40,122 bases of DNA from Deltaproteobacteria bacterium (GTDB taxonomy: Bacteria > Desulfobacterota > Binatia > UBA1149 > JAJCZL01), in contig JAJCZL010000044.1 of assembly GCA_029262415.1 (NCBI GenBank), positions 1 to 40,122 on the forward strand. The letters are read 5' to 3'. Positions 27,678 to 37,807 of the stretch are shown here, in pieces. Made by a program: the position numbers and the translations under genes. The first letter of the stretch is position 1. Each line of letters begins with the position of its first letter. The notes beneath the pieces are model-generated. The model saw nothing but the letters and a program-made list of their open reading frames with translations. It ran no database searches and was not told the DNA's origin.

Positions 27678-28904
27678 ATGAAACGCAATAACTCGGCTTC
27701 GGCACATGAAAACGGGAGCGCGTTGCTGCTGGCTGCATTCTCGGTCGTGGTGATGTTGTTGATGGTAGGGCTGACCGTCGACCTTGGTGGTGCCTACGTC
27801 ACCCATGCGCGGTTGTCCAAGGCCGTAGATGCCGGTGCTTTGGCGGGTGTTCGCCACATCCAGCTGACTGATGCCCAGGTGCACCAAAACGTTCTCAAGA
27901 TGGTGAATGCGAACTACCGAGGTCGCGTTCCTGCGACCTTTGACGTGCAGATCACCAGGCCGTCGGCCGACGCGACCCGCGTGACCGTCGCCGCCACTAC
28001 CAAGGCTCCGACATTTTTTGCCAAGCTGATTGGTCAATCGAATGTGAACGTGGCGGCGGTGGCAGCTGCGACTCGGTATCCGCTCGACTTGAGCTTCGCG
28101 CTCGATGTTTCCGGCTCGCTTCAGCAACAAGGCGTATTCGGTGATATGCAGGACGCGTCGTCGAATTTCCTTGATTACTTCGACGACGACACCGACCAAC
28201 TCGGCCTTGTGATCTACTCGACGTCGGCCGAGGAGAAAATGAGCATCCGCAAGAACTTCAAGTTCCAAGGAAAGTCCGAGATCGCGGCATTGAGGCCGCT
28301 TAGCTGGACCAATACCGAAGAGGCGTTACGCCTGGCCAAGGTGCAACTCGACACTGCACCACAACGCCCGGATGCGACAAAGATCGTTGTCCTGTTTACC
28401 GATGGGCGCCCGACCGCTTTCCGTGACAGCTTCGAGATGGCGGGTCCTCCGAGTGAGGAGCCTGCCCAGTTTGACGGTGTCGTGGCAGGCGTTTCAGATT
28501 TCGGCGGTCTGTATCAATGGCAAGACGGCCGCCGGGTCGGGTCGTTCCTCGGCGGTCTCCCGGTTCTGGGTAGTGGCCGTTCACCCGAGCCGCAGGTGCT
28601 TCCCGGCCCGGCGGCTGTGAACGGTGCCAACATTCGCGCACTCGGTATCGCGCAGTCAGAGGCCTGGGCCGATCAGCTGCGTGCGGCCGGATACACGGTC
28701 TACGCTATCGCCTTGGGCAATCCCATGGCATCGGACCCGCTCGCGCAACCGGATCTACCGTTCTTGCAGCGACTCGCCAACGCCGGCGGCATTTCTGATC
28801 CCTTACAACCACGCGGTGAAATGCTGTTTGCCCCGAACGCGGCGGCTCTCGAACAGACTTTTGTGAAGCTCGCTGACCGGATTCTCCTGCGCCTGACCCA
28901 ATAA
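27678..28904 (+). CDS. TadG-like pilus-type membrane protein with von Willebrand A domain
   Basis: A 408-residue protein. The N-terminus NGSALLLAAFSVVVMLLMVG followed by LTVDLGGAYVTHARLSKAVD is the prepilin-like helix and turn of TadE/TadG proteins (Flp pilus-assembly family), with the basic stretch and Gly before the helix. Residues 140-400 form a von Willebrand A domain whose metal-site motif is DVSGS (DxSxS), with FTDGRPT as the later Asp loop. It is predicted to be anchored in the inner membrane and exported, binding a protein partner. ATG has AGGA at 8 bases. No other tad genes are in the window, so it may act alone, and an intrinsic terminator follows at 28929. Confidence 0.85.
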   Translation: MKRNNSASAHENGSALLLAAFSVVVMLLMVGLTVDLGGAYVTHARLSKAVDAGALAGVRHIQLTDAQVHQNVLKMVNANYRGRVPATFDVQITRPSADATRVTVAATTKAPTFFAKLIGQSNVNVAAVAAATRYPLDLSFALDVSGSLQQQGVFGDMQDASSNFLDYFDDDTDQLGLVIYSTSAEEKMSIRKNFKFQGKSEIAALRPLSWTNTEEALRLAKVQLDTAPQRPDATKIVVLFTDGRPTAFRDSFEMAGPPSEEPAQFDGVVAGVSDFGGLYQWQDGRRVGSFLGGLPVLGSGRSPEPQVLPGPAAVNGANIRALGIAQSEAWADQLRAAGYTVYAIALGNPMASDPLAQPDLPFLQRLANAGGISDPLQPRGEMLFAPNAAALEQTFVKLADRILLRLTQ

Positions 28905-29056: not shown

Positions 29057-29122
29057 TTCGTCGGGTTCGCGCGGCACCATTCGGGGGCAACCGTGGTGGG
29101 CGCTAACGCAGAGGGAGAACCG

Positions 29123-31297
29123 ATGGCGATGAGATCTCTAAGCGACATTCGCTCACGCGCAGGAGTTCTGACAGCGTTCGCGGTCCTGGTCTGGATCTTC
29201 CCGGCGGGCGTCGATAGCGCAATCGGCGCGCCGAGTGCCGGCACCGTGCTTTCCGCTCAAAAGACCACCGAGGGGCTCAACGGCATGGTTGGTGCACTGG
29301 GAGACTTCGACTTCTTTGGAGCCGACGTGGCGTTTATCGGCGACATCGACGGTGTCGGACCCAGCGTCGGTGCAATTGCTGTAGGGGCGAGGGGCAATGA
29401 TGAAGCACCGGGCAACGACCAGGGGGCAGTCTGGATTCTGTTCCTAGATGCCGGTGGGGCGGTGATTGACGAACAACAGATCAACGCGGTCAACGGCGGC
29501 CTCACGGGCCCCTTGGACACCGACGATTTCTTTGGCTCCGGGATAGCAGGACTCGGCGACCCGGACAGCGACGGCCTTTTGTCGATCGCCGTCGGTGCAA
29601 GCGGAGATGACGACAACTACGGAAGCGGCGGTAACCACGGTGCGGTTTACATACTCGAACTCAACACCGACGGTACGGTGGCCACAGAGCGTAAAATCTC
29701 GGCAGCCGATCCAACTCTCACCGGCCCCCTTACGTCGACCGGTGGATTCGGCGAAGGGCTTGCGTTTTTGGGTGACCAGGACGGTGACGGCATCGGAGAT
29801 ATCGCTGTTGGTGCGAGCAAGGACGATGACGGCGGTGTCGGTGCCGGCGCTGATCGTGGAGCGGTTTGGATCATCTCGCTCGCTGCCGATGGCAGCGTCC
29901 TTGCCGATCAAAAGATTTCAGATGTGACTGGTGGCCTGACGGCTTCGCTGGCTGACGGCGATGGGTTCGGCAGCTCGGTGACCGCGCTCGGCGATCTCAA
30001 TGGCGACGGTTTCGGCGATATCGCGGTTGGAGCCGTCGGCGACAACGACGGCGGTGGCACCGGCAACCAGGGCGCTGTGCACGTGTTGTTCCTGAACTCT
30101 GCGGGCACGGTCGTGGGCGAACAAAAGATCAGTGCTAGCGCCGGCGGCTTCGCCGGAACGCTTGATGTAAACGACTTTTTTGGAGCCGGTGTTGCGGCTG
30201 TAGGTGATCTAGACGGAGACCTCATCAACGACCTGGCGGTCGGCGCACGGGGTGACGACGACGGCGCCGCCGAGACCGGCGCGGTGTGGGTTCTCTTCTT
30301 AGACACGGACGGAACCGTCCTTGCACACCAGAAAATTAGTCTGCTCGACGGAAACATGCCGGCAGGCGAACCCAAGAGCGCCAGCGGGTTCGGGGCCGGA
30401 GTAGGTGCATTCGGCGACTTTGACGGCGATGGGATCTTCGATTTACTCGTCGGCGCCGACTTCGATAACACCGCCGGTGCGGGTACCGGTGCGCTCCACC
30501 GACTCAATCTGGACGGCGTACCGATCGTCTGCGGCGACTCGCTGATCGGGTTTGGCGAAGACTGCGACGACGGTAACATCTCGTCCGGCGATTGCTGCGA
30601 TGACGGCTGTGTATTCGAGACGGTGGGCAGCTCGTGTAGCGACGGCGACGTGTGCAACGGCGGTGAGTTGTGCGACGGCGCCGGCACCTGCGACGGGGGT
30701 ACGCCGCTTGACTGCGACGACAGCGAGATATGCACGGCCGATACCTGTGATCCGGTCGGCGGTTGCACGAACGGCCCCGCGGCAGGCTGCTTAGTTGCCG
30801 CCAAGGCTTCGTTCCAAATCAGCGACAAGGCCGACGACTCGAAGGACAAGCTAAAGTGGAAGTGGGTGAAGGGTGACGCCTTCGCGCAGTTCGACTTGGG
30901 CGACCCGACGGCTACGACGAGTTACCGCTTGTGTATCTTCGACCAGGTTGCCGGCGTTGCGCAGTTCGCGGGCAAGCTGGAGATCGCTGCTCCGAACGGA
31001 GCCTGGCTCGACAAGGCTCCGAGAGGTTGGCTCTACAAGGACAAAAGCCGCGCGATTGACGGTGTAGACAAGATCAAGTTGAAGCCTGGTGATTCCGGCA
31101 AGACGCAGGCGCAACTATCCGCGAAGGGTGCGATTCTCGGCGCGGTCCTCCCGGGTCCGGTGGGCGCACAGTACTTCTTCCAGGACACCGACGTCGTGGT
31201 TCAACTTGTTAACGATCCTGAAGGGCAGTGTTGGGAGACTACGTTGGCTGTGGCGACCAAGAACCTGGACGATAGATATAAAGCGAAAGCGCCTTAG
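29123..31297 (+). CDS. Exported FG-GAP propeller protein with Cys-rich region and WKW-type C-terminal module (paralogue 1)
   Basis: A 724-residue exported protein. The signal peptide (VLTAFAVLVWIFPAGVDSAIGA) precedes six FG-GAP/integrin-alpha-like repeats of about 65-70 residues, each with an FG motif, a calcium loop such as GDQDGDGIGDIAVGAS, and a strand reading GAVW(I/V)LFL. A Cys-rich stretch follows (CDDGNISSGDCCDDGC, then CDDSEICTADTCDPVGGC) with about 20 Cys that probably form disulfides. The last 150 residues make a module beginning LKWKWVKG and containing DLGDPTATTSYRLCIFDQ and GWLYKDK, shared with the next gene. ATG at 29123 has AGGGAGA upstream. Likely a surface adhesion or matrix protein; ligand unknown. 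Confidence 0.88.
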   Translation: MAMRSLSDIRSRAGVLTAFAVLVWIFPAGVDSAIGAPSAGTVLSAQKTTEGLNGMVGALGDFDFFGADVAFIGDIDGVGPSVGAIAVGARGNDEAPGNDQGAVWILFLDAGGAVIDEQQINAVNGGLTGPLDTDDFFGSGIAGLGDPDSDGLLSIAVGASGDDDNYGSGGNHGAVYILELNTDGTVATERKISAADPTLTGPLTSTGGFGEGLAFLGDQDGDGIGDIAVGASKDDDGGVGAGADRGAVWIISLAADGSVLADQKISDVTGGLTASLADGDGFGSSVTALGDLNGDGFGDIAVGAVGDNDGGGTGNQGAVHVLFLNSAGTVVGEQKISASAGGFAGTLDVNDFFGAGVAAVGDLDGDLINDLAVGARGDDDGAAETGAVWVLFLDTDGTVLAHQKISLLDGNMPAGEPKSASGFGAGVGAFGDFDGDGIFDLLVGADFDNTAGAGTGALHRLNLDGVPIVCGDSLIGFGEDCDDGNISSGDCCDDGCVFETVGSSCSDGDVCNGGELCDGAGTCDGGTPLDCDDSEICTADTCDPVGGCTNGPAAGCLVAAKASFQISDKADDSKDKLKWKWVKGDAFAQFDLGDPTATTSYRLCIFDQVAGVAQFAGKLEIAAPNGAWLDKAPRGWLYKDKSRAIDGVDKIKLKPGDSGKTQAQLSAKGAILGAVLPGPVGAQYFFQDTDVVVQLVNDPEGQCWETTLAVATKNLDDRYKAKAP

Positions 31298-31445
31298 CCG
31301 CGCAAGGGTGGATGCGTGGGTTCGTGCACGCACGGAGCAGCTTTGCTGATGAGCACGGCACGTGCGCTCTCGCACAAAGCTGTGGTATGCTGCGCGGATC
31401 AGGCGTGGGTAGGTCAGTTGGGTGGAAACAAATGGAGGAGTTCTT

Positions 31446-33728
31446 ATGAGTTCGAGTTTAGCGTTTATGTTGCGTCAGCAGCGGCTACTTGTCGCTGCTC
31501 TCATTGTGGGTTTCGCGGTCAGCGCGCCCAACAACGCTTTTGCACAACCGGGCACGGTGCTTGGCGAGCAGAAAATCAGCCAAACCACTGGCGGTTTTAC
31601 CGGTCCGCTTAATAACTTCGACTTCTTCGGGAGCAGTATCACTTCTCTCGGCGATCTCGATGGTGCCGGCCCGAGCGCGACTGCCGTCGCCGTTGGCGCA
31701 CCGTTGGATGACGACGGAGCCGCGTCTGCAGGCGCCGTTTGGGTCTTGTTCTTGGACGCCGGCGGCAGCGTCCTTTCGGAATCGAAGATCAGCGCGACGG
31801 CGGGCGGTTTCACCGGGCTGCTCGATGCGAACGATAACTTCGGTTCCTCGCTAGCGGGTCTTGGCGATATCAACGGCGATGGTACGGTCGAACTAGCCGT
31901 GGGATCTCCGCGCGATGATGACAGTCTGCCTCCGAACACCGCCGGCGGCGACCGCGGGGCGGTTTACATTCTGTCGCTTACGCCTACAGGTGCGGTCGCG
32001 TCGCATGTGAAGATCAGTGCTTCGGTGGGCGACTTCGGGGGTGTGCTCGACTCCCTCGATAGGTTTGGAAGCGCGGTAGGAGCCGCAGGTGATATCGACG
32101 GTGACGGCCGGGTAGATCTCGTTGTCGGTGCCGAATTGGACGATGACGGCGGCACCGGCCGCGGTGCGGCCTGGGTACTGTTTCTCGACACCGATGGGAT
32201 CGTACTTTCCGAGCAGAAGATCAGCGGCCTCGACGGTGGATTCACAGGTGTTCTCGACGACAATGACGGCTTCGGTTCCGCCGTAGTCGGGATTGGCGAT
32301 CTTGACGGCAACGGTACGCCTGACCTCGCCGTCGCCGCGCGCAACGACGACGACGGTAGCGATGCGCTTGCGAACTTTGGTGCTGTGTGGATCCTGTTCC
32401 TGAACGGCGACGGCACCGTCGCTACGCATCAGAAGATCAGCAATACCGACGGTGCCTTTACCGGCATTCTCGATCGGGGCGATACCCTCGGCTACTCGCT
32501 GGTGGCGATCGGAGACATCGATGGCGATGCCGTCACTGAACTGGCGGTCGGGACGGCAAACGATGACGACGGGGGTACCGACACCGGCGCGGTATGGATC
32601 CTGTTCATGAACACCGATGGGACCGTGGCGCTGAACCGCAAGATCAGTGCCCTCGACGGTGGTTTCCTCGGGCCTCTCGGTACCAGTGATAACTTTGGTT
32701 CCGGTGTCGCCGCGCTCGGCGACATCGACGGCGACGGCGTGAACGATCTCGGCGTCGGCGCGCGCTTTAACGATGACGGAGGCTCGACGAGGGGGGCGGC
32801 TTGGATCCTGTTGCTGGATGGCGCAGTCAGCACTTGCGGCAACGGCATCGTCGAAGGCGCCGAAGACTGCGACGACGGCAACACCGAAGATGCCGATTGT
32901 TGCAGTTCGGTCTGCCGCTTCGAGGGAGCGGGCACCCGTTGTCTCGATAACGACTTGTGCAACGGCACCGAAGTCTGCGACGGCGCGGGCACCTGCCTTG
33001 CCGGACCGGTGCTTAACTGCAACGACAGTAACCTCTGTACAGACGACGGTTGCGACGCCCTTAGCGGGTGTATCAACGCCGCGAATACCGCTCCGTGTAG
33101 TGACAGCAATCTGTGCACCACCGGTGATCAGTGCGTTAACGGTGTGTGCGCCGGCCAGGCACCGCTTAATTGCGATGACGGTAGTCTGTGCACGTTCGAC
33201 ACCTGCGACGACGCTCTCGGGTGTCTGAACGAGCCCGCACTGCGAAATCTGTGCCGCGTCTCGGAAAAAGGAAAGCTCAAGATCGAGATCGAGACGCTTG
33301 ACCCCGATGAGACCGAACTCGAGTGGAAGTGGCAGAAGGGTGCATTGGTCGAACTGCAGGATCTTGGCGATCCGACCGCCGACACCGACTACACGCTCTG
33401 TATCTTCGACCAAGACAACGGAACGGTGACTCTAGCGACGGAGTTGACGGTGCCCGCCAACGGGGCATGGAGAGACAAGGGCTCGAAGGGTTGGGACTAC
33501 AAAGACCACGGCACCTTCGACGGTGTCCGCAAGCTAAAAGTCCGCACAGGGGCCGACGGCAAAGCGCGCGTCGACCTGAAGGCTGAGGGCCTCAACCTTC
33601 CGATGCCGAGCGAGGTTGCGCCCGGGCAGTTCTTCGTTGAAGACCCGAGCGTGATCGTTCAAATGATCAACAGCGTCGGGACCTGCTGGGAATCCGAAGT
33701 GAATCCCAAAGTTGAGTTCGATGACTGA
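31446..33728 (+). CDS. Exported FG-GAP propeller protein with Cys-rich region and WKW-type C-terminal module (paralogue 2)
   Basis: A 760-residue paralogue of the upstream protein, lying 148 bases after it in the same direction. The signal peptide is LLVAALIVGFAVSAPNNAFA. Six FG-GAP repeats follow with the same FTGxLDxxDxFGS opening and calcium loops such as GDIDGDGRVDLVVGAE. The Cys-rich region is longer than in paralogue 1, with an extra CSDSNLCTTGDQCVNGVCAG unit. The C-terminal module starts LEWKWQKG and includes DLGDPTADTDYTLCIFDQ and GWDYKDH, ending near CWESEV. GGAGGAG five bases before the ATG at 31446 fixes the start. A very strong terminator follows at 33781. The pair looks like a tandem duplication kept under selection. 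Confidence 0.9.
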   Translation: MSSSLAFMLRQQRLLVAALIVGFAVSAPNNAFAQPGTVLGEQKISQTTGGFTGPLNNFDFFGSSITSLGDLDGAGPSATAVAVGAPLDDDGAASAGAVWVLFLDAGGSVLSESKISATAGGFTGLLDANDNFGSSLAGLGDINGDGTVELAVGSPRDDDSLPPNTAGGDRGAVYILSLTPTGAVASHVKISASVGDFGGVLDSLDRFGSAVGAAGDIDGDGRVDLVVGAELDDDGGTGRGAAWVLFLDTDGIVLSEQKISGLDGGFTGVLDDNDGFGSAVVGIGDLDGNGTPDLAVAARNDDDGSDALANFGAVWILFLNGDGTVATHQKISNTDGAFTGILDRGDTLGYSLVAIGDIDGDAVTELAVGTANDDDGGTDTGAVWILFMNTDGTVALNRKISALDGGFLGPLGTSDNFGSGVAALGDIDGDGVNDLGVGARFNDDGGSTRGAAWILLLDGAVSTCGNGIVEGAEDCDDGNTEDADCCSSVCRFEGAGTRCLDNDLCNGTEVCDGAGTCLAGPVLNCNDSNLCTDDGCDALSGCINAANTAPCSDSNLCTTGDQCVNGVCAGQAPLNCDDGSLCTFDTCDDALGCLNEPALRNLCRVSEKGKLKIEIETLDPDETELEWKWQKGALVELQDLGDPTADTDYTLCIFDQDNGTVTLATELTVPANGAWRDKGSKGWDYKDHGTFDGVRKLKVRTGADGKARVDLKAEGLNLPMPSEVAPGQFFVEDPSVIVQMINSVGTCWESEVNPKVEFDD

Positions 33729-34612: not shown

Positions 34613-34685
34613 AGTCCGGTTGAAACCTACAAAAACAGTGCTTTTGAGCTTCGCCGACCCCACTGGGGGGCACGATGAGGAACCC

Positions 34686-35447
34686 ATGACTCCAACCCAA
34701 GTATGTTTTTCTGCGTTAGGCCGCTCCATGTGGGCTGTGCTGATTGTCACGTCCTTCGTGGCTTTTTCCTCCAGCGCGGGTGCGGCCGGCGGCTGCGGCG
34801 ACGACATTAACGGCGCTCGCGTAGCCTGTTCGTGCGGCGACGCAGTTGTCTCCGACGTGCGCCTGAGGCCGGGGGATCCGGTCGTGCTCGGGCGCTGCAA
34901 AGGAGACGGCTTGATCCTGCGCGCGCGGCCCGGAGGCGAATCGCTGCGGCTCGATTTGGCTGGACTCTCGCTGGTCGGTGAGGGCCGCGGCACTGGAATC
35001 CGTGTCCTCAACGGCGGCAAAGGCGGCGCCGTCATTGTCGGGGGCAAGCCCGGCGAGGTCGCCGAGATCGCCGGATTCACTACCGGAATCAAGGCTCACG
35101 GCTCCGAACGAATCAAGGAAGTTAGCCGCGTTGTTCTTAAGGCCAACAAACGCGATGGACTGCGCGTCTACGGAAGCCCTGGTGCGATCATCAGTGATAT
35201 CACCACGACCAGTAACGGCCGCGACGGTATGCGGGTACGAAGCCACGGCGCACAGATCCATTCCGTCGACGCGCGCGGCAACGCCAAAGCCGGTGTCAAC
35301 GTTAGTGGTGAAAACGCAAGAGTCCAGGCTTCGGTTGCTGACAACAAAGGTAGCGGAATTCTTGCCCGTGGGCGCGGGCACGATCTCTCAGGTATCGAAC
35401 TTGGTGAAGGTCAGAAAGCCGACGTTACTGTGAGGCCGGCCAAGTGA
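34686..35447 (+). CDS. Exported parallel beta-helix repeat protein
   Basis: A 253-residue exported protein. After a signal peptide (SMWAVLIVTSFVAFSSSAGA) the mature protein begins GGCGDDINGARVACSCGDAV, with a Cys cluster. It then shows repeated beta-helix turns such as GTGIRVLNGGKGGAVIVGG, KANKRDGLRVYGSPGAIISD and GRDGMRVRSHGAQIHSVDAR, about 22-24 residues apart. ATG at 34686 is chosen because the upstream frame (from 34620) has no start context and the signal peptide fits. The stop overlaps the GTG of the next gene, so the two are co-translated. Its fold resembles the truncated gene at the left window edge. Confidence 0.78.
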   Translation: MTPTQVCFSALGRSMWAVLIVTSFVAFSSSAGAAGGCGDDINGARVACSCGDAVVSDVRLRPGDPVVLGRCKGDGLILRARPGGESLRLDLAGLSLVGEGRGTGIRVLNGGKGGAVIVGGKPGEVAEIAGFTTGIKAHGSERIKEVSRVVLKANKRDGLRVYGSPGAIISDITTTSNGRDGMRVRSHGAQIHSVDARGNAKAGVNVSGENARVQASVADNKGSGILARGRGHDLSGIELGEGQKADVTVRPAK

Positions 35448-37807
35448 AAAAGATCCCAACTCTTCTTATCCTATCCTTTTGTTTGCTTTTGACGTTCTCG
35501 AGCCGCGCGTCGGCCGTAGTAATCATCGCCAATACCGCCGATGACGTTTGCGCGCCAACTGCCGATCCGTGTCAGATCGTGGACGAGGTGCAGGTTCAGG
35601 ACTTCGCCACGCTTGATTTTGGTACGCGCGAGATCCTGCTTACCGGCGGCGGGCAGTTGAACTTTGGTTTCGCGCAGGCTGACCTGCTTGCCGGCAACAT
35701 CACGCTTAGCCCGTCTAACGGCGCCGCGATCAACCTGAAGGACAGTTTTTTCGGCGACACGGTTGGCGGTTTTGTCGCCATCGTCGCACGACGGGCCTGT
35801 TCCGGTGACGCCGCGCGGCCATGTACCTCGGATTTCGAATGCGCGGCGCTGGGTGTCGGCGCCTGTAGCGCAGGTCCGGCCGGCACCTTTACCCTGAACG
35901 GACGGCTTGCCGGCAACGCCAACGAACCGGGTTCCATCACGATATTTTCGACCGGTACCCTTACCATAGCCGGCAACATCAACATATCCGGAGACACCCC
36001 TGACTCCGATGGCGGCATCGTCGAGCTCGACTCGTCTCAGGGCAGTGTGCTGCTGAACAATCCCATCACCGCGACTTCGGGCACCCAAAGTACTGGCGGC
36101 GAGGTCATCATCGCGGCGGCTCTCGACATCACCACCAACGCGGTCATCGACGTGAGCTCCCCGGGCGGTGATTCAGAAGGAGGTGTAATCGAGTTCGACG
36201 CCGGCCGCGATCTGCATGTGAACGACGACCTGTTGGCCAATGGTGGCGCCGACTTCGGCGGCAGTATCCTTGGGGGCGCCGGCCGCGACCTCCTGATTCA
36301 AGGGGGTACCAGTTCGAACGCCCAGCGCATTGAGGTCGACGGTGGCAGCAACTCGTTCAACGAAGCCGGCGATGCGGGCGACATTGAATTCAGTGCGTTG
36401 AACGATATTGTTATCGGACCCAACGCGCGACTGGATGGGAGGGGTGCCGCTCCTGATGGCGATGGGTCGTTCGGTTTGACGCTGGACGCATCGCGCGATG
36501 TGATCATCAGCGGCCGTCTTGACGCGAGGGCGGTCGGGGGCGACGGCTTCGGCGGAAACATAGACGTCGCGGCGAGCGGAGCTATCTCGGTCACGCCGTC
36601 CGGCCTTCTCGATGCGCGCGGTGGTTCGGGCGGCGCCGGGATTATCGATCTCACCAGTGGTGGGCCGATGAACTTTCAAGGCACAATCAGCGGCACCGCG
36701 AACAACCAGGGCGACGGGGCCTTCGTCAGTTTAGATTCGTCCGCCGAGGCGCGTATTAGCGGGGCCATCGATGTTTCCGGCACTCCAACGTCTACCAAGA
36801 ACGGAGAGATCGCTGTAACGGCGTGTCAGGTCGTCATAGCGACGGGCGGGAGTCTTGTCGCCAACGGCGGCCGCGGCGAGAACATCCTTACGGGTAGGGA
36901 ACGAATCACGGTTGAGGCCGGAGCCACGCTAAATGCTTTGGGCGGCATCGGCTCGGTCAACACCATCCGCTACCGTGATCCCAACAAGCCGCCGACGCTG
37001 CTCGGCACCATTTCTCCGGCGCCATCATTGAGCCTGGCGATACTGATTGGTTGCCCGGTGTGTGGAAACGGAGAGGTAGAGCAAACCGAATCCTGCGACG
37101 ATGGCAACCTTGTCAACGGTGACCAGTGCTCTGCGGAGTGCCAAGATGAAGGCTGCGTTGCCGAGACCCCGGGATTTCCCGGAGTCTCCCTTTGTAATGA
37201 CGGCGTAGGCTGTACGCTTGATACCTGTAACGCCGCGACGCATAGCTGCGAACACGTTTTCAGTTGCGACGACGGCATCGCCTGTACCAATGACCTGTGC
37301 GTCGGGGAGCAGTGCCAGAATACGCCCGACGACTCGCTGTGCAGCGACGGTAATGTCTGCACCGACGATATCTGTTCGGGCACCACCGGCTGTCAGTTCG
37401 TTTCGGTTCCGGGTCCCTGTGATGACGGTGAGTCGTGCACGATCAACGACCAGTGTTCCGGCGGCTTTTGCAGTGGGGATGCGCAGAATTGCATGATCTG
37501 CGGCGACGGCGTCCTGGATAACGGTGAACTGTGTGACCACAACGGCAACAATGGCGTGACTGGTGACAATTGCGGTACCGACTGCACGTTCAGCACTTGC
37601 GGGGATCCCAATGGAACCGCCATCGTCACGGCTTCGGACGCATTGTTTATTCTTCAGGCTGCAGTTGGTGCCGCCAGCTGTGACGTATGCCTGTGTGATG
37701 TTTTGCAGTCCGGCGGTGCCGCTATTACGGCCAGCGACGCGGCGGCCGCACTGCGGTTCTCGGTCGGTGTGCCGATCACGCTGAACTGTCCGCCCTGCCA
37801 GCCCTAG
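35444..37807 (+). CDS. Large exported beta-strand repeat protein with Cys-rich region and C-terminal dockerin-like repeats
   Basis: A 787-residue exported protein. The signal peptide (IPTLLILSFCLLLTFSSRASA) is followed by some 500 residues of repeating short strands, such as GSITIFSTGTLTIAGNINIS and GRDVIISGRLDARAVGGDGF, a filamentous-haemagglutinin/beta-helix pattern. From about residue 525 a Cys-rich region begins (CGNGEVEQTESCDDGN, then repeated CxDG-x-x-CTxDxC units). The C-terminus has two dockerin-like segments, GTAIVTASDALFILQAAVG and AAITASDAAAALRFSVG, each an EF-hand-like loop plus helix. The GTG start overlaps the previous TGA. The dockerin-like end may dock this protein onto a cohesin-bearing partner not found in this window. 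Confidence 0.83.
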   Translation: MKKIPTLLILSFCLLLTFSSRASAVVIIANTADDVCAPTADPCQIVDEVQVQDFATLDFGTREILLTGGGQLNFGFAQADLLAGNITLSPSNGAAINLKDSFFGDTVGGFVAIVARRACSGDAARPCTSDFECAALGVGACSAGPAGTFTLNGRLAGNANEPGSITIFSTGTLTIAGNINISGDTPDSDGGIVELDSSQGSVLLNNPITATSGTQSTGGEVIIAAALDITTNAVIDVSSPGGDSEGGVIEFDAGRDLHVNDDLLANGGADFGGSILGGAGRDLLIQGGTSSNAQRIEVDGGSNSFNEAGDAGDIEFSALNDIVIGPNARLDGRGAAPDGDGSFGLTLDASRDVIISGRLDARAVGGDGFGGNIDVAASGAISVTPSGLLDARGGSGGAGIIDLTSGGPMNFQGTISGTANNQGDGAFVSLDSSAEARISGAIDVSGTPTSTKNGEIAVTACQVVIATGGSLVANGGRGENILTGRERITVEAGATLNALGGIGSVNTIRYRDPNKPPTLLGTISPAPSLSLAILIGCPVCGNGEVEQTESCDDGNLVNGDQCSAECQDEGCVAETPGFPGVSLCNDGVGCTLDTCNAATHSCEHVFSCDDGIACTNDLCVGEQCQNTPDDSLCSDGNVCTDDICSGTTGCQFVSVPGPCDDGESCTINDQCSGGFCSGDAQNCMICGDGVLDNGELCDHNGNNGVTGDNCGTDCTFSTCGDPNGTAIVTASDALFILQAAVGAASCDVCLCDVLQSGGAAITASDAAAALRFSVGVPITLNCPPCQP

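Follow-up and report, generated by a model that had tools for sequence, protein, structure and literature searches.

Two neighbouring genes in a genome of the Binatia encode FG-GAP repeat proteins with similar C-terminal ends, and the question raised by this locus is what kind of domain these ends represent and what it might do for the proteins that carry it. The DNA analysed, here called the window, is a contig of 40,122 nucleotides (JAJCZL010000044.1, our C44), one of 83 contigs in a host genome of 3.91 million bases. The relevant features are:

29093-31297, forward strand: open reading frame of protein 1 (734 residues), with a signal-peptide-like N-terminus, FG-GAP repeats, a Cys-rich linker and the C-terminal domain
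30518-30778, forward strand: Cys-rich linker of protein 1, its left edge set by hand and its right edge taken from the alignment
30779-31294, forward strand: C-terminal domain, copy 1 (172 residues; profile match 4.0e-62)
31422-33728, forward strand: open reading frame of protein 2 (768 residues), with a signal-peptide-like N-terminus, FG-GAP repeats, a DUF4215/myxo_disulf_rpt linker and the C-terminal domain
33243-33725, forward strand: C-terminal domain, copy 2 (161 residues; profile match 2.4e-54, covering positions 3-156 of 169)

Pfam searches recovered the FG-GAP repeats in protein 1 (PF01839, 2.4e-13) and in protein 2 (5.9e-27), and the N-termini of both pass a crude signal-peptide rule. 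Protein 2 additionally matches DUF4215 with 27.2 bits (Pfam) and the NCBIfam model TIGR02232 at 2.8e-08, and the linker of protein 1 approaches the latter model at 0.00042, with 20.1 bits being just below the cut-off of 20.8. Directly upstream of both genes (27678-28904, forward strand) lies a gene for a TadE/G-like protein with a VWA domain.

The common C-terminal module is real: a search of the host genome with copy 1 recovers copy 2 at E 6.7e-31, and the two represent one domain of about 165-170 residues (169 profile positions) that share 42.8% identity over 159 aligned residues. All the motifs that had been read from the letters, namely LxWKWxKG, DLGDPTAxTxYxLCIFDQ, NGAWxDK, GWxYKD, DGVxKxK and CWE, are visible in their alignment. 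The start first assigned to it, 30851, is about 24 residues too late; the domain begins at 30779, its start having been set with reference to a near-invariant cysteine at residue 4. Copy 1 runs up to the stop codon of protein 1, and copy 2 lacks the last 12 or so profile positions, which form an FKAK-type end strand. The claim that the module stays similar even where the remainder has diverged does not apply to the FG-GAP pair, in which the FG-GAP part (48.8% identity) and the Cys-rich linker (51.2%) are both slightly better conserved than the domain, but it does apply to copies joined to other passenger families. Recent import of the domain from an AT-rich source is not supported: GC at third codon positions is 0.727 and 0.745 in the two domains, higher than in their passengers (0.689 and 0.687).

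Sequence searches of Pfam, NCBIfam and the PDB with the domain recovered no family. We searched Pfam and NCBIfam at E <= 0.1 with the 52 members of an alignment (A1) from which the partial copies at L008, L042 and L045:3-458 were excluded and in which the tails of L024 and L033 were trimmed, and obtained single-member weak matches to unrelated families. These were set aside: in Pfam, SAVED (0.0025), Invasin_D3 (0.026) and three others, each with one of the 52 members; in NCBIfam, an SCO7460 lipoprotein model (0.03) and the type II secretion protein XpsN (0.091), again with one member each; and among PDB sequences, two chains at E 0.17 and 0.76. Among the titles listed for open-licence literature on Binatota (also with type II secretion), Binatia, Desulfobacterota and protein sorting, none concerned such a domain. 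In line with the original prediction, these searches do not support a known domain; the family is undescribed and absent from the Pfam and NCBIfam versions searched.

The suspicion that similar ends occur on many exported proteins of related bacteria was borne out. A single-sequence search found 16 copies in the host genome, and a 52-sequence profile gave 16 matches there at E 1.1e-30 or better along with two marginal ones; a further host locus (L042, 6058-6618) encodes a copy without about the N-terminal third, possibly reflecting a frameshift, a deletion or an assembly error. In a search of the host and 38 relatives the domain was found in 28 of the 39 genomes; the 12 relatives that belong to the host's order all have it. 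The highest number of matches in a single genome was 48, and the 28 carriers together gave 479. Across the class it is present in 52 of 148 genomes; in this survey at most 23 candidates were scored per genome, such that a copy count of 23 is to be read as at least 23. A sample of the phylum contained six genomes with the domain out of 297, all six within the window's class. We also ran two short patterns against one genome from each of 84,980 species, a procedure that sees close pattern matches only and may miss carriers elsewhere; it returned 68 stretches, 18 of which, in 13 genomes, encode a relative. Judged by identical match coordinates, 11 of the 13 belong to the window's class, one of these 11 being a Candidatus Binatia record from the window's own family; another (R1_Bin_MAXBIN) agrees with a class genome in size, copy number and best E, and the Myxococcota record agrees with none of the genomes listed. 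By record title these 18 loci belong to Deltaproteobacteria (8), Candidatus Binatia (5), Proteobacteria (2) and, with one each, Polyangiaceae UTPRO1, Myxococcota and an unspecified "bacterium", and the carrier records with names are all metagenome-assembled genomes. UTPRO1 is used as an order name within Binatota in PMC8262859. In the phylum of the Myxococcota-titled record, 4 of 188 genomes, that record included, have the domain, which is thus not confined to one lineage. A run of the profile on the open reading frames of 203 sequences gave 210 domain matches at i-E <= 1e-4 (loci overlap and repeats are included) as against none for the same frames reversed, and the matches are therefore not due to chance.

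The domain lies almost always at the end of its protein. Of the 108 distinct copies from the longer stretches, 98 stop no more than 6 residues short of the C-terminus; for 7 the distance is 7-30 residues, and 3 lie deeper. Over all loci, the stop codon is in view for 144 distinct copies, of which 130 lie within 6 residues of the end, with 8 intermediate and 6 more than 30 residues inside. Strict C-terminality thus fails in a minority, and a free end cannot be a general requirement; in two of these six copies the domain precedes a Thr/Pro-rich linker and a further region. No protein has more than one copy (108 of 108 with one). The crude signal-peptide rule is positive for 96 of the 101 carriers with their start in view and for 5 of 91 random internal starts, and it is a weak test since it is also positive for 126 of 274 (46%) long open reading frames that lack the domain at these loci, a set that includes some exported, membrane-bound or spurious frames.

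The regions that precede the domain are diverse. We scanned 10 of the 14 host open reading frames outside the window, of which 3 have no Pfam family at E <= 0.001, and the passengers in the host genome include FG-GAP propellers, cytochrome c, beta-helix, BNR and SBBP propeller proteins and an astacin protease with a MAM domain. In other genomes, 65 of the 85 full open reading frames, taken shortest first (L175 being one codon short), contain 43 Pfam families at E <= 1e-5, some of them overlapping; among the 25 of these that were listed are the peptidase families S8, M36 and trypsin, GH5 cellulase, beta-helix, CBM96, BNR, sugar dehydrogenase and penicillin amidase, most of the listed families being found in one to five proteins each. 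This anatomy bears on an alternative in which the domain would be an ordinary extracellular module that attaches to a glycan or mineral or serves as a cap for its passenger, has no sorting role and was spread by domain shuffling within one lineage. Ig-like beta-sandwiches, to which the predicted fold may belong, are common binding modules, a few copies are internal, and the families of some carriers (cellulase, CBM96) act on glycans. The almost invariable terminal position, the limit to one copy in each of 108 proteins and passengers without an evident common substrate speak against it, and we regard such a role as unlikely.

The window also contains a different kind of ending. An exported-looking Cys-rich DUF4215-like protein of 787 residues (35444-37807, forward strand), which lacks the domain, closes with a duplicated motif that we take to be dockerin-like; Pfam detects no dockerin in this protein at E <= 0.001. 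Five further open reading frames of the loci contain the motif, in some cases away from the end, and one of these (L140) also has the domain. In this lineage the dockerin-like repeats resemble the domain in that comparable Cys-rich exported proteins may end in them instead, but they consist of a short duplicated motif unrelated to it in sequence. Just upstream is a basic (pI 9.47) beta-helix-like open reading frame (34620-35447, forward strand).

Within the 52 members C52, G95 and C151 are invariant, and C4, P43, D55, W76, Y86, D88 and Q142 are near-invariant. In 85 of 88 copies examined there is an extra cysteine no more than 14 residues upstream of C4, which makes a disulphide between C4 and this cysteine plausible; a second one between C52 and C151 is likewise plausible. 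In the 98 of 108 copies that were compared for charge, the domain is more basic than its passenger in every case, with a median pI of 9.05 against 4.14 and a median lysine content of 8.7% against 1.05%, and in none of the 98 is the passenger net positive. The pooled ratio Lys/(Lys+Arg) is 0.68 for the domains, 0.23 for the passengers and 0.20 for five other genes of the window, and in 7 of the 98 the lysine share of the domain is not above that of the passenger. A single invariant lysine for covalent attachment is not supported, as all 14 columns that are at least 60% basic mix lysine and arginine, the best having 34 lysines and 13 arginines among the 52 members.

A contrast of this kind might suggest that the basic domains bind the acidic passengers of other proteins and thereby build an extracellular matrix by charge pairing. 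The higher pI of the domain in all 98 comparisons and the complete lack of net positive passengers speak for such an arrangement. Against it, 19 of the 98 domains have a net charge of zero or below, and copy 2 is itself acidic (pI 4.53); further, exported-looking proteins without the domain exist and passenger acidity may be general to exported proteins, since the 35444-37807 protein has a pI of 4.05. All of these points also weigh against retention by charge. We regard assembly of a matrix in this manner as very unlikely.

Fold prediction, which had been proposed as a check, produced a confident all-beta model: for copy 1 with a 23-sequence alignment AlphaFold2 reached a pLDDT of 94.4 and a pTM of 0.89, with two short helices besides the strands and with the last predicted strand extending to residue 171 of 172. 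Foldseek gave no match to the PDB at E <= 0.001, the best being at E 3.7e-3, and its best matches were CTLA-4 and other Ig V-type domains with TM scores of about 0.3. In a VIA comparison with the PDB the top rows were MtrC, an archaeal flagellin, CTLA-4 and FlaF with Z of 4.3-4.9 (maximum 4.9), which may reflect nothing beyond a common strand arrangement, and a library of viral structures provided weak matches. With low confidence, the model may be assigned to the Ig-like beta-sandwiches; it may also represent a distinct sandwich.

Among known systems, the C-terminal domains (CTDs) of the type IX secretion system (T9SS) of Bacteroidota are one of the closest. According to PMC4804311, these are C-terminal Ig-like beta-sandwiches on diverse exported proteins of one lineage; our domain shares the position and the diversity of carriers, and weak structural matches hint at an Ig-like fold. 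The CTD fragment described there (RgpB S664-K736) has 73 residues, less than half the length of the approximately 170-residue domain. The domain also differs in its conserved cysteines, in its lack of a family match and in that its carriers show no SprA match. Pfam and NCBIfam include models of the T9SS CTD. None of the 52 members matches a C-terminal signal family in either collection, T9SS CTD structures are not among the PDB structural matches listed, which says nothing against a relationship, and SprA (TIGR04189) has no match over the cut-off in any of the 148 genomes, the 52 carriers included, with none of 14 control genomes positive and hence no positive control; sub-threshold weak matches are found in no carrier and in 6 other genomes. 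Membership of the domain in the T9SS is not supported, in line with the original prediction that this is no type IX tail. The broader variant, a cleaved C-terminal Ig-like domain read by some translocon novel to date, would account for the position, a broadly similar kind of fold, the signal-peptide-like N-termini, the diverse cargo and the many copies per genome; set against the missing family and SprA matches and the more than twofold greater length, we consider it highly improbable.

The other well-known C-terminal features differ more in form. PEP-CTERM is a multi-copy C-terminal feature of exported proteins and resembles the domain in this respect, but the domain lacks its short motif and helix, and the exosortase (PF09721) was not found in 24 of the 52 carriers. 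With beta strands predicted to the very C-terminus, and without a short motif, helix and basic tail, the ends described here are not PEP-CTERM tails, as had been stated. Upstream of MYXO-CTERM, proteins often carry acidic Cys-rich repeats, TIGR02232 among them. The MYXO-CTERM/myxosortase system of Myxococcota is similar in that a C-terminal feature is carried by dozens of proteins per genome, and its clients are reported as dependent on type II secretion (T2SS), both in PMC11980579; the present domain differs in being predicted as globular beta, without a transmembrane helix or Arg cluster. The MYXO-CTERM model TIGR03901 matches none of the 52 members and nothing in the host genome, and MYXO-CTERM occurs in 14 of the 148 class genomes (13 carriers and one other) and in none of the 13 genomes of the window's order, including the host. 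By analogy, the closest functional counterparts would be the T9SS CTD, in position and kind of fold, and MYXO-CTERM, with its T2SS-dependent clients.

Is there, then, a transporter or partner gene that accompanies the domain? We compared the 52 carriers with the 96 class genomes without it; the p-values ignore kinship and the patterns follow families. GspG is present in 51 of 52 carriers, the miss (G099) being 85% complete, and in 82 of 96 others, and GspC in 39 of 52 and 48 of 96, respectively. Because GspG is also frequent in genomes that lack the domain, the T2SS does not explain it. Exosortase PF09721 is more frequent in carriers (28 of 52 against 14 of 96; p 9e-7, kinship ignored) and was rejected as a dedicated partner, not being found in 9 of 10 genomes of families f3 and f4, one of which has 48 copies of the domain. 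Several short exosortase-like open reading frames (about 160-260 residues) per genome were observed in many members of families f10, f13, f15 and f16, the same families as those with the MYXO-CTERM matches, and these may form a separate sorting system. Genes beside those for the domain were no more informative: an all-against-all comparison of 585 open reading frames (at least 100 residues) of 99 loci, judged by eye, showed no recurrent obvious partner, the recurring neighbours being mostly housekeeping-enzyme-like or other exported-looking proteins. The suggested co-occurrence with a specific transporter was thus not found, with SprA giving no match over the cut-off, exosortase not found in many carriers and T2SS being common without the domain.

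The T2SS data do raise the alternative that the domain is an export signal rather than an anchor, being recognized by a T2SS, perhaps the second one of these genomes. On contig C56 of the host genome, two GspG matches and a GspC match, together with the order of the genes and the pseudopilin sequences at protein N-termini, point to two distinct T2SS-like gene clusters (L199 and L200), with the names given by eye; one of the clusters adjoins a glycosyltransferase-like gene. Two or more GspG matches are found in 38 of 52 carriers and in 16 of the 96 other genomes (Fisher p 1.4e-11, kinship ignored), but this association follows family lines and may be explained by kinship alone. The remaining 14 carriers have one or no GspG, among them G018 and G102, which are 98% and 99% complete and have 8 and 10 copies of the domain. 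Further, a single domain common to its clients is not usual for a T2SS, and we hold the export-signal explanation, too, to be unlikely. A more elaborate version, in which these bacteria would possess an outer-membrane sorting pathway of their own with the folded, Cys-bearing, lysine-rich Ig-like domain as the address label for the second T2SS, in a role like that of the T9SS CTD or MYXO-CTERM, is quite unlikely.

We infer from the anatomy that surface sorting or assembly, as first suggested, is the best class of explanation. Within it we tentatively favour, at somewhat less than an even chance, a common, lineage-enriched C-terminal module for surface targeting and retention on exported proteins that are probable T2SS clients. 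On this proposal passenger and domain would cross the inner membrane together by Sec and fold in the periplasm, where disulphides would form in the Cys-rich linker and the domain. The folded protein would then cross the outer membrane, most likely via type II secretion. Once outside, the acidic passenger would be kept at the cell surface or matrix, both anionic, by its basic C-terminal domain, such that correct localisation would depend on the domain. If it is indeed a sorting or retention module, one profile could list a large part of the proteins that these bacteria place on their surface or secrete, including proteases, glycosidases, propeller and beta-helix proteins and cytochromes, and the way in which a lineage without detectable SprA labels its surface proteins could be studied in a laboratory host.
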